The notes beneath the pieces were generated by a model. It was not told where the DNA came from. It saw only the letters and a program-made list of their open reading frames with translations, and ran no database searches. DNA of 64,000 bases from SAR202 cluster bacterium bin87 (GTDB lineage Bacteria > Chloroflexota > Dehalococcoidia > Lucifugimonadales > UBA3495): positions 62,001-126,000 of the forward strand of contig MPNC01000005.1 of assembly GCA_002238825.1 (NCBI GenBank), read 5' to 3'. This document shows, in pieces, positions 47,428 through 53,092 of the stretch. The position numbers and the translations under genes are program-made. The first letter of the stretch is position 1, and every line of letters begins with the position of its first letter.

Positions 47428-49710
47428 ATGACTACCAACGGCACTGCAGGCGCTTTGCGAGACATCCACGTGGTGGAATTCGGGCAGTACGTGCCCGGGC
47501 CGATGCTGGGGATGCTGCTGGCCGATCAGGGCGCGCACGTGATCAAGATCGAGCGGCCGGGCGGAGATCCCGCGCGGTCGGAGCCGGCATTCGCCACGTG
47601 GAACCGTGGCAAGCGATCGGTAACGCTGGATCTGAAGACCGACACCGGGCGGCAAAACGCGCGACGGCTGGTCGCCAATGCCGACGTGGTCATCGAAAAT
47701 TTCCGACCGGGAGTCGCCGACCGGTTGGGCGTCGGGTACGAAGAGCTGTCGGCAAACAACCAGCGGCTGATCTACTGTTCGCTGCCGGGATACGGCGAGG
47801 AACATCCCAGCCGCAACGAGCCGGGCTGGGATCCCGTCATCAGCGCGGAGACCGGCTTCTACCCCGAAACTACGGAAAGCGACGGGGAGCCGCTGTTCAC
47901 GCCACTGCCCATTGCCAGCACCTTTTCCGCGTTGCTGGGGTCGGTGTCCGTCGCCATGGCAATCAACGCGCGGGACAAGTCGGGCAAGGGGCAGCGGATT
48001 GAGGTTCCGCTGCACTCCGCGATGTTTACGGCGATGGGCAGCCGGATCATCAAGTTCAACAGCTACGAGTACGTTGACCTGTTCGACTTTCCGCGCACGG
48101 TGATGTCCCATCCCTATCAGTGCGCCGACGGCCGGTGGGTGTACCACCACGGCATGTTCGAGCGGTTCGCGCGGCAGACGCTGACGGCGGCGGGCAAGAC
48201 GGAATGGATCGAAGAGGCCACGTCGCTGTTCGGCCGGCCGGTGGACGCGGACACGCTGGCGTTCTGGCAGGACCGGTTCGCGGAAATGTTCAAGGAGCGG
48301 ACGGCGTGGCAGTGGGAGGCCGACATCAACGCGCAAGGTGGGGCCTGCACAGTGTGCAAGACCGTGGACGAGTGGCTGGTTCACGAGCACGCCGTTGACG
48401 CGAAGATGGTGGCGGAGGTCGAGGATGCCGAGCAGGGCATGATGAAGCAGCCGGGCGTGCAGGTGCGGCTCCGCGGAACCCCTGGCGCGATACAGGGTCG
48501 CGCGCCCAAGCTGGGCGAGCATACCGACGAGGTTTTGGCGGAGTTGGAGAGCACGCCAGCACGGCCGGCCCCCAGCAACGGACACGGTGACGTGATGTCC
48601 GCGCTTCAGGGGGTACGGGTCCTGGACCTGTGCATCATCCTGGCGGGACCGACGTGCGGACGCACCCTGGGCGAATTCGGGGCGGACGTGATCAAGATCG
48701 ACGACCCGACCCGCATCCTGGACCCGATTGGCTACATCGACGTCAACCGGGGCAAGCGCAGCATAATGCTGAACCTGAAGACCGACGAGGGTCGCGAGGT
48801 TTTCTGGAAATTGGTCGAATCGGCCGACGTGATCGTGGAGAACAACCGCAAGTCGGCGGTGCAGCGGCTGGGCCTCGGATACGAAGAGGTCAAGAAGGTG
48901 AAGCCGGACATCGTCTACGCTTCCCTGAACGCGTTCGGATACGATGGGCCCTGGTCGGAGCGGGCCGGATGGGAGCAGTTGGCGCAGGGCACCAGCGGGA
49001 TGCAGGTGCGGCGCGGCGGACGGGACGGCAAGCCGATGCTGGCTCCCTACGCGGTGAACGACTACGGCACCGGCCTCATGGGAGCCTACGCAGTGGCCCT
49101 GGCCTTGCACGAAAGGAACCGGACCGGTAAGGGCCAGTCGGTAGACAGCGGGCTGGCGCTGACTGCCGGAATTTTGCAGTCGCCGTACTTCCTGGATTAC
49201 GAGGGATACCAACGCGAGGAAATCGAGGGAGTCGAAGCTCGCGGTTACTCGGCCCGTTCGCAGTTGTACCAGGCCGCCGACGGGTGGCTGTATATCCATT
49301 GCCCCGACGGCGGGACGTACGGGTCGCTGTTGTCGGCGCTGAATTTCCGAGACATCCACTATGACAGCGACGCGATCGCGGACGTCATCAGGGGCAACAC
49401 CATCGAGCACTGGATGCAGGAGTTACGTCCGCTGGGAGTGTCGGTTAGCCCGAACCTGACGATGGAAGACTACCGCCACGACCCGGTGGTGCGTAACGCG
49501 GGTTTCGTTGTGACGCGGGAACACACCGTATGGGGCAGCGTCGACCACTCGGGCACGACGGCGCGACTGTCCGCCACGCCACCGAGGCTGGGGCCGCCCG
49601 CTCCGTGGTTCGGGATGCATACGGATGAGATCCTGGCGGAAGCGGGCTACTCCGCAGCCGAGATTGAGGTGCTGAAAGCCTCGGGAGCGGCCGTGACACG
49701 CAGTCCATAA
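47428..49710 (+). CDS. Tandem-domain type III (CaiB/BaiF) CoA-transferase
   Basis: A 760-residue protein made of two complete CaiB/BaiF domains in one frame, roughly residues 1-375 and 390-760, joined by a Pro/Ala-rich linker. Each has its own N-terminal motif (VVEFGQYVPGPMLG and VLDLCIILAGPTCG). The Asp that forms the acyl-CoA anhydride (Asp169 of formyl-CoA transferase) is present in the second half (Asp545, AVNDYGTG) but is Ser164 in the first (IASTFSAL). Natural CoA-transferases are interlocked homodimers, so the fused chain would have one active and one structural half. It starts after GAGGAG. Confidence 0.92.
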   Translation: MTTNGTAGALRDIHVVEFGQYVPGPMLGMLLADQGAHVIKIERPGGDPARSEPAFATWNRGKRSVTLDLKTDTGRQNARRLVANADVVIENFRPGVADRLGVGYEELSANNQRLIYCSLPGYGEEHPSRNEPGWDPVISAETGFYPETTESDGEPLFTPLPIASTFSALLGSVSVAMAINARDKSGKGQRIEVPLHSAMFTAMGSRIIKFNSYEYVDLFDFPRTVMSHPYQCADGRWVYHHGMFERFARQTLTAAGKTEWIEEATSLFGRPVDADTLAFWQDRFAEMFKERTAWQWEADINAQGGACTVCKTVDEWLVHEHAVDAKMVAEVEDAEQGMMKQPGVQVRLRGTPGAIQGRAPKLGEHTDEVLAELESTPARPAPSNGHGDVMSALQGVRVLDLCIILAGPTCGRTLGEFGADVIKIDDPTRILDPIGYIDVNRGKRSIMLNLKTDEGREVFWKLVESADVIVENNRKSAVQRLGLGYEEVKKVKPDIVYASLNAFGYDGPWSERAGWEQLAQGTSGMQVRRGGRDGKPMLAPYAVNDYGTGLMGAYAVALALHERNRTGKGQSVDSGLALTAGILQSPYFLDYEGYQREEIEGVEARGYSARSQLYQAADGWLYIHCPDGGTYGSLLSALNFRDIHYDSDAIADVIRGNTIEHWMQELRPLGVSVSPNLTMEDYRHDPVVRNAGFVVTREHTVWGSVDHSGTTARLSATPPRLGPPAPWFGMHTDEILAEAGYSAAEIEVLKASGAAVTRSP

Positions 49711-50384: not shown

Positions 50385-50415
50385 TGGGCCAACTGCGCCC
50401 GCCGGAGGTAGAGGT

Positions 50416-52626
50416 ATGTTACGCATCTACAACACCCTGACGAAGAACGTCGAGGAGATCCGGCCAATGACGCCCGGCAAGGTGTCGATGTACACCTGCG
50501 GGCCCACAGTGTACCGGTATGCGCACATCGGCAATCTGCGCACCTACTTGATGGCGGACTGGATCCGCCGCATTCTGGTGGCCGACGGCAACGAGGTCTA
50601 CCACATCAAGAACATCACCGATGTGGGACACATGCGCCAGGAACTGGCTGAGGCCGGCGGCGACAAGATGATCATGGCGGCCCTGGCCGAAGGCAAGTCC
50701 CTACAGGAAATTGGCGAATTCTACGCGGACGTTTTCTGGCAGGACGAGGAGCGGATCAACATCCTGCCGGCGCACGTGTTCCCCTGGGCGTCGCACCATA
50801 TTCCCGAGATGCTGGAGATGGTGGGCACGCTGATGAACAACGGGGCGGCGTATGAAGCCGGTGGGAATATCTACTTTGACGTGAACAGCTACCCGGAGTA
50901 CGGGAAGCTGTCGCGCAACTTCGGCGGCGACCTGCTCGAGGGTGTCCGGGCGGAAGCGGACCCGCTGAAGCATGATCCGAGGGACTTCACCCTGTGGAAG
51001 GCGGCAGAACCGGGACGGGACGTGAAGTGGGACAGCCCGTGGGGCGAAGGGTTCCCCGGCTGGCATATCGAATGCTCAGCAATGGCGCATAAGTACCTGG
51101 GCGAGAAGTTCGACATCCACACGGGCGGGGTCGACAACGTGTTCCCGCACCACGAGGACGAGATCGCACAGAGTGAGGGGGCCTTCGGAGAGCGGCACGT
51201 GAACTACTGGGTGCACGGACAGCACCTCCTGGCGGATGGGGCCAAGATGGCGAAGTCAGCCGGGAACGTGTTCCTGATCGAAGACCTGTCGTCGCGGGGA
51301 TTTGACCCGCTGGCGTTCCGGTACCTGTGCATGACAGTGCGATACCGGCACCGGATGAACTTCACCTTCACGTCGCTGCGGGCGGCTGAAAAAGCCCTGA
51401 CCGGATTGCGCAACCGCATCTGGGTATGGCGCAACATGGCGGGCAACGGCTCGGGCCAGCATGCCCTGAGCGCCGAAGGCCAGGAGTGGAGCGGCAGATT
51501 CTGGGACGCGGTTCACAACGACCTGGACCTGCCCACCGCGCTGGCGATTACGTGGGCGATGGTGCGGTCGGAACTTCCGGCGGCGGACAAGCTGGCACTG
51601 ATTCTCGACTTTGACCGAGTATTCGGGCTGGACCTGGACGAGGTGCCGGAGCGGTACGAGATCGACAGTCAGAACAGCGATGTGCTGGAGCGCCGGTCCG
51701 AGCTGCGTCAGCAGGCAGCCTATCGCGACGCCGACGCGCTGCGGTCCCAGGTGGTGGAAGGCGGCATGGTGGTGCAGGACACGGGAGTGGCGACGCTGGT
51801 GCGTCCGCAAACGCCCCTGGAACTGCAGGAGGCGCGGTGGCCTTCGATATCCGCTTCGCGGGAAGTGCCTTCCTTGCTGGGAGAACCCGACCTGTACGAC
51901 TTCACGTTCCTCGTCAACGCCTATGACTACGTAGACGACGTGCGGCGGTGCGTGGAGGCGGTCCTGCGACACACCGGCGGAGAGTCGGTGGAGATCATCG
52001 TGGTCGACAACGGGTCCACGGACGGCACGGCAGAGTACCTGGAAGAGGCCCAGGCCGAGCACTCCAACGTGTGTGTCATCCACTGCGACCATGTGTTAGG
52101 CGACGCCGCGGGCAAGAACATCGGACTCAAGCAGGCCCGGGGACGGTACATCGTGCTTCTGGACGCCTCGACGGAAGTGGTTGGAGACATCCTGTCCCCA
52201 GTGGCGGAACACCTGGCGGATAGCAGCATCGGCGTGTTCGGCCCATACGGGTTGACCACGGATGACATGCAGCATTTCCACGAGGAGGTGGACCGGGGCG
52301 ACGCCGACGCGATGCAGGCCTACTGCATGGCGTTCCGGCGCGCGGACCTGCCGTCTGTGGGGTTGATGCACGAGTCCTTCCGGTTCTACCGAAACCTGGA
52401 CATCGACTATTGCTTCCAGTTCAAGAACGCCGGCTACCGGGTGGTGTGCGACAGCAGCCTGCCGCTGGTGCGTCACGAGCACCGCCAATGGGAGGAACTC
52501 GAGGAGAACCAACGCGACGAGTTGAGCCGCAAGAACTTCGGGCGATTCCTGAAGCGGTGGGGCGGCCGGCCCGACCTCCTCATCAACCCCGACGCGCGCG
52601 GGTTCGATACGGGGTTCCGGCACTAA
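50416..52626 (+). CDS. cysS: Cysteinyl-tRNA synthetase fused to a GT2 glycosyltransferase domain
   Basis: A 736-residue protein. Residues 1 to about 465 are a complete class I CysRS: zinc ligands Cys28 (CGPTVY), Cys220 (WHIECSAM) and the His pair at 245-246, HIGN at 37-40, KMAKS at 277-281. It charges tRNA-Cys in the cytoplasm. Residues from about 492 to the end form a GT-A glycosyltransferase (EIIVVDNGSTDGT at 527-539, RGRYIVLLDAST at 576-586, NLDIDYCFQFKNAGY at 660-674). The usual DxD is DAS. The junction is in frame with no stop. The start is chosen by GGAGGTAGAGGT and the upstream -10. Confidence 0.92.
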   Translation: MLRIYNTLTKNVEEIRPMTPGKVSMYTCGPTVYRYAHIGNLRTYLMADWIRRILVADGNEVYHIKNITDVGHMRQELAEAGGDKMIMAALAEGKSLQEIGEFYADVFWQDEERINILPAHVFPWASHHIPEMLEMVGTLMNNGAAYEAGGNIYFDVNSYPEYGKLSRNFGGDLLEGVRAEADPLKHDPRDFTLWKAAEPGRDVKWDSPWGEGFPGWHIECSAMAHKYLGEKFDIHTGGVDNVFPHHEDEIAQSEGAFGERHVNYWVHGQHLLADGAKMAKSAGNVFLIEDLSSRGFDPLAFRYLCMTVRYRHRMNFTFTSLRAAEKALTGLRNRIWVWRNMAGNGSGQHALSAEGQEWSGRFWDAVHNDLDLPTALAITWAMVRSELPAADKLALILDFDRVFGLDLDEVPERYEIDSQNSDVLERRSELRQQAAYRDADALRSQVVEGGMVVQDTGVATLVRPQTPLELQEARWPSISASREVPSLLGEPDLYDFTFLVNAYDYVDDVRRCVEAVLRHTGGESVEIIVVDNGSTDGTAEYLEEAQAEHSNVCVIHCDHVLGDAAGKNIGLKQARGRYIVLLDASTEVVGDILSPVAEHLADSSIGVFGPYGLTTDDMQHFHEEVDRGDADAMQAYCMAFRRADLPSVGLMHESFRFYRNLDIDYCFQFKNAGYRVVCDSSLPLVRHEHRQWEELEENQRDELSRKNFGRFLKRWGGRPDLLINPDARGFDTGFRH

Positions 52627-52642: not shown

Positions 52643-53092
52643 ATGGGCAACGCCGTCATCTCTCCAAACCAGCAAGATACCCTGACCCATCAGTGCGGCC
52701 TATACATGACCACCACTTCAATTCAGGACGGCGTAGACGAAATCTTCGCAGACGCCCGTCAGATTCACGCGCAGGCTATCGAACGCCTTGAATGCGGCGA
52801 CATCCGAGACGCCGCGGAAAAGGCATGGTGCGCGACCAAGCGCGCCACCGACGCGCTTGTCCTTGCCCTTATGGGCGAAGAGCCGGGACCAACGGGTTTT
52901 ACCAGCAATTGCCTCGACGACCTGGTCGAATCAGGCCGTGCAACCAATTCCCTGCAAAGACGCTACTATAGCCGTCTCAGCCAGTTGCACGGCGCGTGTT
53001 TCTACACTGGAGCCTGCAATCGGCACACCGAGCGGCGTATCAGAGAAACCGACGCCTACATTGCTGATGCCGTGGCTCTTTCCGCCGGATAG
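52643..53092 (+). CDS. PaREP1-like HEPN-family protein
   Basis: A helical protein of 149 residues (or 128 if it starts at ATG 52706). The segment ECGDIRDAAEKAWCATKRAT and the later SRLSQLHGACFYTG match PaREP1-type proteins, a HEPN-related group common in archaea and found in some bacteria. An RX4H pattern (Arg-Leu-Ser-Gln-Leu-His) is present. It follows the cysS fusion gene by 16 bases and may share its transcript. Its role is unknown; an RNA-binding or RNase function is possible. Confidence 0.65.
   Translation: MGNAVISPNQQDTLTHQCGLYMTTTSIQDGVDEIFADARQIHAQAIERLECGDIRDAAEKAWCATKRATDALVLALMGEEPGPTGFTSNCLDDLVESGRATNSLQRRYYSRLSQLHGACFYTGACNRHTERRIRETDAYIADAVALSAG

Follow-up and report, generated by a model that had tools for sequence, protein, structure and literature searches.

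Synthetases fused to a second enzyme have been described before; LysX, for example, is a LysRS fused to MprF, and its Lys-tRNA is used to decorate lipid. To our knowledge, no sugar modification of a bacterial tRNA-Cys is on record, and we know of no queuosine in tRNA-Cys (GCA). The MetRS of Mycoplasma penetrans carries an appended aminotransferase (PMC7694997). A glycosyltransferase activity at an anticodon is found in animals, where QTGAL (B3GNTL1) and QTMAN (GTDC1) glycosylate queuosine at position 34 (PMC11705514). In E. coli CysRS, Arg427 and Asp436 hydrogen-bond to G34 of the anticodon, which stacks on Trp432, and a water network includes Arg423 (PMC12684709). For a fusion of CysRS to a glycosyltransferase we found no paper in the openly accessible literature, mostly without subscription journals, in agreement with the original prediction that the pairing is not a standard one.

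Such a fusion is encoded in the window, by which we mean the whole stretch of DNA analyzed here (64,000 nucleotides, G000:C28:62001-126000), which lies inside a 4.96-Mb genome. A single open frame on the plus strand (50416-52626; 736 codons and a stop) encodes CysRS followed by a GT2-family glycosyltransferase domain, with Pfam matches to both halves, as had been predicted from the reading frame, and its homologues are open over the full length. A Shine-Dalgarno-like GGAGG, read from the sequence, is located 7 bases 5′ of the ATG (50404-50408, same strand). The class I CysRS catalytic core occupies residues 1-325 (50416-51390; PF01406, tRNA-synt_1e, at residues 16-325, E 1.6e-94) and contains HIGN at residues 37-40 (50524-50535), KMAKS at residues 277-281 (51244-51258) and the zinc ligands C28, C220, H245 and E249. 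It is followed by a helical DALR-like region (residues 326-415, 51391-51660), recognized from the helices of the predicted model aligned to 1u0b; a Pfam scan of this region gave no DALR_2 match. The CysS_C anticodon-binding domain spans residues 418-464 (51667-51807) and is defined by residue conservation and by a PF23493 match at residues 422-460 that scores 18 bits in one scan, under the cut-off of 23, and 23.2 bits, just over it, in the genome scan. A linker (residues 465-492, 51808-51891) separates it from the GT-A fold, GT2-family domain at residues 493-736 (51892-52623), which is supported by structure-model matches and by PF00535 (Glycos_transf_2) at residues 500-609 (E 3.2e-21). The glycosyltransferase had been predicted to start after about residue 490, and it does begin at about residue 493, but the linker precedes it and the anticodon domain (about residues 418-464) lies directly before that linker.

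The CysRS half has the features of a working enzyme. It scores 405 bits against TIGR00435 (cysS), for which the cut-off is 340, and the zinc ligands (equivalent to E. coli C28, C209, H234 and E238) are 100% conserved in 35 fused sequences, with HIGN and KM[A/S]K at or near 100%. An AlphaFold2 model of the fusion (pLDDT 84.4, pTM 0.78) aligns over residues 1-465 with tRNA-bound E. coli CysRS (1u0b_B) at a Z-score of 49.8 and an rmsd of 2.6, with 442 residues aligned. The sequence strongly indicates that this half is active as a synthetase. It is not, however, the cell's only CysRS. All genomes with the fusion and a completeness of 90% or more have at least one further CysRS match, which rules out the fusion as sole CysRS; it is a specialized paralogue, not the housekeeping enzyme. 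In the genome of the window the second CysRS has 473 amino acids and is 37% identical to the fusion; this ordinary enzyme (L002, G000:C42:661346-662710) has DALR_2 and lacks a CysS_C Pfam match. In a quick CysRS tree, whose only branch support is SH-aLRT, the fused sequences all group in a single clade (SH-aLRT 99) that adjoins standalone Chloroflexota sequences, here called CysRS2, and the ordinary CysRS of the fused genomes lie elsewhere in the tree. In related small genomes of the class there is just one CysRS match, 35-40% identical to the fusion, and we take it to be of the ordinary type. Among the wider CysRS2 relatives, some are the only CysRS match in their genome, e.g. in G163, which is 99% complete; from this genome content, the CysRS2 lineage would contain working CysRS enzymes.

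In the GT half, the motif DNGSTDG (residues 531-537, 52006-52026), a GT2 nucleotide-binding motif, is present as predicted, as are HIGN, KMAKS and the zinc ligands in the CysRS half. The anticipated GT-A fold was likewise recovered: a separate model of CysS_C plus GT (pLDDT 82.8) matches the GT2 structures PcManGT, WrtF and SpsA over its GT part at Z-scores of 19-20. The metal-binding DxD motif of GT2 enzymes is absent and most members have D-x-S-x-E instead; in the fusion this position, which had been called a weakened DxD (DAS), reads DASTE (residues 583-587, 52162-52176). Within the fused set D583 is conserved in 91-96%, S585 in 72-87% and E587 in 94-97% of sequences, and the D and the E are 100% conserved in Actinomycetota. 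D531, the first Asp of DNGSTDG, which is expected at the uracil, is retained by 83-85% of the sequences in the fused and Actinomycetota sets, whereas families f58 and f70 have Ala there. D662 (52399-52401), the presumed catalytic base (the Asp of the ED motif) from alignment only, is invariant in the fused and Actinomycetota sets and 95% conserved in the unfused Chloroflexota proteins. The possible metal-ligand histidines of the aligned HEH motif (residues 687-689, 52474-52482) are similarly retained, H687 at 97% and H689 at 100% in fused sequences and both at 100% in Actinomycetota. This pattern of conservation suggests that the GT domain is probably active, with an unusual metal site. The replacement of a DxD Asp by Ser, together with the loss of the uracil-binding Asp in f58 and f70, implies that nucleotide-sugar binding may fail in some members.

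The fusion is widespread among relatives. Counting the window's own genome, the full-length fusion, uninterrupted by any stop, is encoded in 46 of 60 relative genomes: all 14 of the genus, 35 of the 36 of the family and 11 of the 24 others in the order. The one family genome in which it is missing is 73% complete. An assembly error or frameshift, which the original prediction had suggested might show as a stop near 51860-51900, is ruled out by these uninterrupted frames. Nor do close relatives always have two separate genes; in a sample of 400 Chloroflexota genomes the GT half was found in 105, in one open reading frame with CysRS in many families across the phylum, and named carriers of the fusion include Dehalococcoidia, SAR202, Anaerolineae and Thermoflexales MAGs. 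Across five close pairs, dN/dS was 0.035-0.058 for the CysRS half and 0.033-0.063 for the linker and GT half, values that place both under purifying selection. Outside Chloroflexota, a profile of the CysS_C-GT2 unit, applied at E≤1e-35, matched none of 348 genomes from the Syntrophaceticus phylum and none of 349 from the Gluconobacter phylum. The same profile at E≤1e-22 had matches in 36 of the 296 genomes searched from the Streptomyces phylum (Actinomycetota), four of these matches reaching only 80-84 bits and lacking the CysS_C part. Planctomycetota, Nitrospinota and Myxococcota were represented in this test by one genome each. In a Myxococcales MAG, a CysRS2 fragment that is 50% identical to the window's CysRS lies at a contig end (L107, 2784-4154), where it is perhaps mis-binned; CysS_C-GT2 was not found elsewhere in that genome.

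The GT half also occurs unfused, and there too it bears the anticodon domain. Standalone homologues of the GT half, of which 26 from Chloroflexota and 20 from Actinomycetota were examined, start with CysS_C. Their PF23493 scores are over the cut-off in some of the Chloroflexota proteins and just under it in others, and are 45.1 bits in the Actinomycetota locus L302 and 30.4 bits in L298. When eight genomes were scanned in full with PF23493 and unclear matches were checked by sequence, matches over the cut-off were found only in CysRS and CysS_C-GT2 proteins, so in these genomes the domain is nearly exclusive to these two families. Residues of the E. coli anticodon domain, among them those that contact G34, could be traced in the alignment, fusion residues R427, R431, Y436, D440, R443 and D455 corresponding to E. 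coli R423, R427, W432, D436, R439 and D451, respectively. Equivalents of R423, R427 and D436 are conserved in 91-100% of the fused sequences and in 94-100% across the alignment of fused, unfused Chloroflexota and Actinomycetota proteins, and the D451 equivalent in 94-100% across these three sets. The Trp432 position is aromatic (Y, F or W) in nearly all fused sequences and aromatic in the unfused and Actinomycetota sets as well. Some of this conservation could be structural.

A GT tree was rooted with Actinomycetota, an outgroup that does not fall perfectly on one side of a branch. All fused sequences, together with a standalone paralogue of family f67, whose genomes measure 3-14 Mb, form one clade (100/98), and the standalone CysS_C-GT2 proteins from Actinomycetota, like those from the Chloroflexota families f58, f68 and f70, branch outside it. 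On this tree the simplest history would be that CysS_C-GT2 is the older unit, that it was fused once to CysRS2 and that it was later released once, in f67. Since the fusion holds one copy of CysS_C and the split state two, we propose that this single fusion took place through the shared domain. Where the two genes are separate, CysRS2 occurs in f58, f68 and part of f70, and at three f70 loci CysRS2 and CysS_C-GT2 are tail-to-tail neighbors (L155, 5380-8011; L156, 2342-6253; L221, 316-2980). All three Actinomycetota carriers of CysS_C-GT2 that were checked also have a CysRS in the CysRS2 group, apart from other Actinomycetota CysRS. The two are not strictly coupled, because several f70 genomes keep CysS_C-GT2 with no recognizable CysRS2.

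We also looked at the tRNA-Cys genes and at the genes around the fusion. A pattern search returned one ordinary tRNA-Cys gene per genome in 16 of 20 genomes and none in the other four; the genome of the window, with its two CysRS, has one standard-type tRNA-Cys gene by this search. No special second tRNA-Cys was found in the 20 genomes with this pattern, which odd variants could escape, and the tRNA-Cys genes of genomes that have the gene did not visibly differ from those of genomes that lack it. Normal-looking tRNA-Cys genes neither support nor refute a modification. Conservation of the genes that flank the fusion does not extend beyond the family, which rules out a linked operon, and the survey revealed no conserved neighbor that would supply an unusual sugar or tRNA precursor. 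Directly 3′ of the fusion, the window has an open reading frame (52643-53092, plus strand) with a match to PaREP1/PaREP8 (PF05942, E 1e-5), a family whose name comes from archaea, and a frame of 760 amino acids at 47428-49710 (plus strand) contains two tandem copies of CoA-transferase family III (CaiB). Two contexts recur in Actinomycetota. In one (L288-L301; e.g. L291, 8273-14088, and L298, 8855-14291), CysS_C-GT2 follows a cNMP-binding protein and an alpha/beta hydrolase; next come FtsH, encoded on the opposite strand, an ECF-type sigma factor and, at some of the loci, a PIG-L deacetylase, and a tRNA-Met gene is nearby. In the other (L302-L304, L306 and L307; e.g. L302, 8642-16714), it is found with two MaoC-type dehydratases, a sigma factor and tRNA-Trp, upstream of apparent ribosomal protein and rpoB genes.

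What carries our interpretation is that a CysRS-type anticodon domain stands directly before the GT-A domain, in the fused and in the standalone proteins as aligned here, and that it is strongly conserved. As the GT domain also carries a tRNA-anticodon-reading domain where no synthetase is attached, it may add a sugar to tRNA-Cys. We infer three things, namely binding of tRNA-Cys by CysS_C, an active GT, and the bound tRNA as its acceptor, the simplest site being the anticodon region; modification of tRNA-Cys had been among the guesses of the original prediction. In this model the N-terminal 465 residues would bind tRNA-Cys through its acceptor end and GCA anticodon and make Cys-tRNA-Cys. The GT-A domain, tethered directly behind the domain that grips G34, would then take a sugar from a nucleotide-sugar donor and attach it to a nucleotide of the anticodon loop or close to that loop; a different site on the bound tRNA would be a less likely target. 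Because tRNA-Cys is not known to carry queuosine, the acceptor would have to be a non-queuosine nucleoside. In the two-gene state, CysRS2 and CysS_C-GT2 would do the same with two proteins that read one anticodon, and the fusion, made once at the shared CysS_C, would couple charging and modification, the likely purpose being to mark, tune or protect part of the tRNA-Cys pool or the decoding of cysteine by it. We hold with somewhat less than even confidence that the fusion is a bifunctional enzyme dedicated to tRNA-Cys, which it would charge and glycosylate near the anticodon. The wider proposal is more tentative still: that CysS_C-GT2, whether it stands alone or is joined to CysRS2, represents the first family of bacterial tRNA glycosyltransferases to have an anticodon-reading domain of its own, and that in much of Chloroflexota and some Actinomycetota it places a sugar on the tRNA-Cys anticodon loop, a modification unrecorded so far.

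The main competing explanation takes the GT-fold domain to be a tRNA-binding or regulatory appendage that transfers nothing, such as a nucleotide-sugar sensor or tRNA clamp, on a second CysRS that serves as a regulated or stress isoform. The degraded DxD and the loss of the uracil-binding Asp in f58 and f70 would fit such a role, as would the presence of two CysRS beside the one standard tRNA-Cys gene found in the window's genome, and appended domains are common on synthetases (e.g. PMC7694997). However, D662, the HxH histidines and E587 are near-invariant, as for an active site rather than a relic, and CysS_C-GT2 persists in Actinomycetota with no synthetase attached. We consider an inert appendage less likely than the tRNA-Cys glycosyltransferase, but a serious competitor. 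By analogy with LysX, the GT could instead act on cysteine or the aminoacyl-tRNA end, with Cys-tRNA-Cys as substrate or donor for S-glycosyl-cysteine or for a Cys-decorated envelope sugar. GT2 members that glycosylate cysteine thiols exist (SunS), synthetase and transferase share one chain, and CysRS2 occurs alongside the GT where their genes are separate. Yet the anticodon-reading domain is all that the standalone GT keeps, and this domain is far from the aminoacyl end; neither an aminoacyl-transferase domain nor a conserved envelope-sugar gene cluster around the fusion was found; we regard this reaction as improbable.

We are about equally doubtful of an accidental fusion that was kept for a useful CysRS2, as a back-up or inhibitor-resistant enzyme, with a GT target unrelated to tRNA. 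Extra synthetase copies do often serve resistance or stress, and the neighborhood is not conserved outside the family, but chance joining does not account for a CysS_C with the same invariant anticodon residues on the unfused GT, or for the way in which GT and CysRS2 occur in parallel in two phyla. The original prediction had drawn a parallel with thiol biology, in which the CysRS half, like MshC, would join cysteine to an aminosugar made by the GT and yield a low-molecular-weight thiol. MshC does have a CysRS fold, and some of the Actinomycetota loci have a PIG-L deacetylase gene at a distance of some kilobases from CysS_C-GT2. Against this, the fusion scores 232.7 bits with the MshC model TIGR03447, whose cut-off is 485, and is separated from MshC by a long branch in the tree; it retains the full anticodon domain with its G34-contact residues 91-100% conserved; the standalone GT carries CysS_C too; and no gene of any kind is conserved beside the fused genes outside the family. 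An MshC-like ligase is therefore very unlikely, and overall the earlier interpretation is partly supported. The ordinary CysRS of the window's genome reaches 324 bits with the MshC model, above the fusion's 233 and still below the cut-off.

If glycosylation of tRNA-Cys is correct, a sugar modification of this tRNA exists in two bacterial phyla and mass spectrometry could detect it directly. It would also follow that one fusion event joined a synthetase to a tRNA-modifying enzyme with which it shares an anticodon, and that much of a phylum has retained the product. Even with an inactive GT, a CysRS anticodon domain has been reused on a non-synthetase protein, and a conserved second CysRS still calls for an explanation. 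Annotation as "cysteine--tRNA ligase" or "glycosyltransferase" alone would hide both the reused CysS_C and the second CysRS.

Compared with canonical CysRS (E. coli 1u0b/1li5; TIGR00435), the fusion shares the catalytic core, the zinc ligands, the HIGH/KMSKS motifs, the helical region and CysS_C, but adds a C-terminal GT2 domain, has no DALR_2 match and is always a second CysRS in near-complete genomes. With the GT2 structures of the WrtF fucosyltransferase (9omh), PcManGT (6yv7) and SpsA (1h7l) it has in common the GT-A fold and the presumed catalytic Asp; it differs in having D-x-S-x-E in place of DxD and in the attached CysRS anticodon-binding domain. The mycothiol cysteine ligase MshC (3c8z) has a CysRS-derived catalytic fold that matches the fusion model at a Z-score of 45, whereas MshC is without an anticodon domain and the fusion reaches only about half of the MshC model's cut-off score and is distant in the tree. 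QTGAL and QTMAN are the nearest functional precedent for a glycosyltransferase acting on anticodon position 34, a functional analogy only, and their target is queuosine, which is not known in tRNA-Cys (GCA). LysX and the M. penetrans MetRS resemble the fusion in that a synthetase is joined to a second enzyme, and differ from it in both the synthetase and the second activity.
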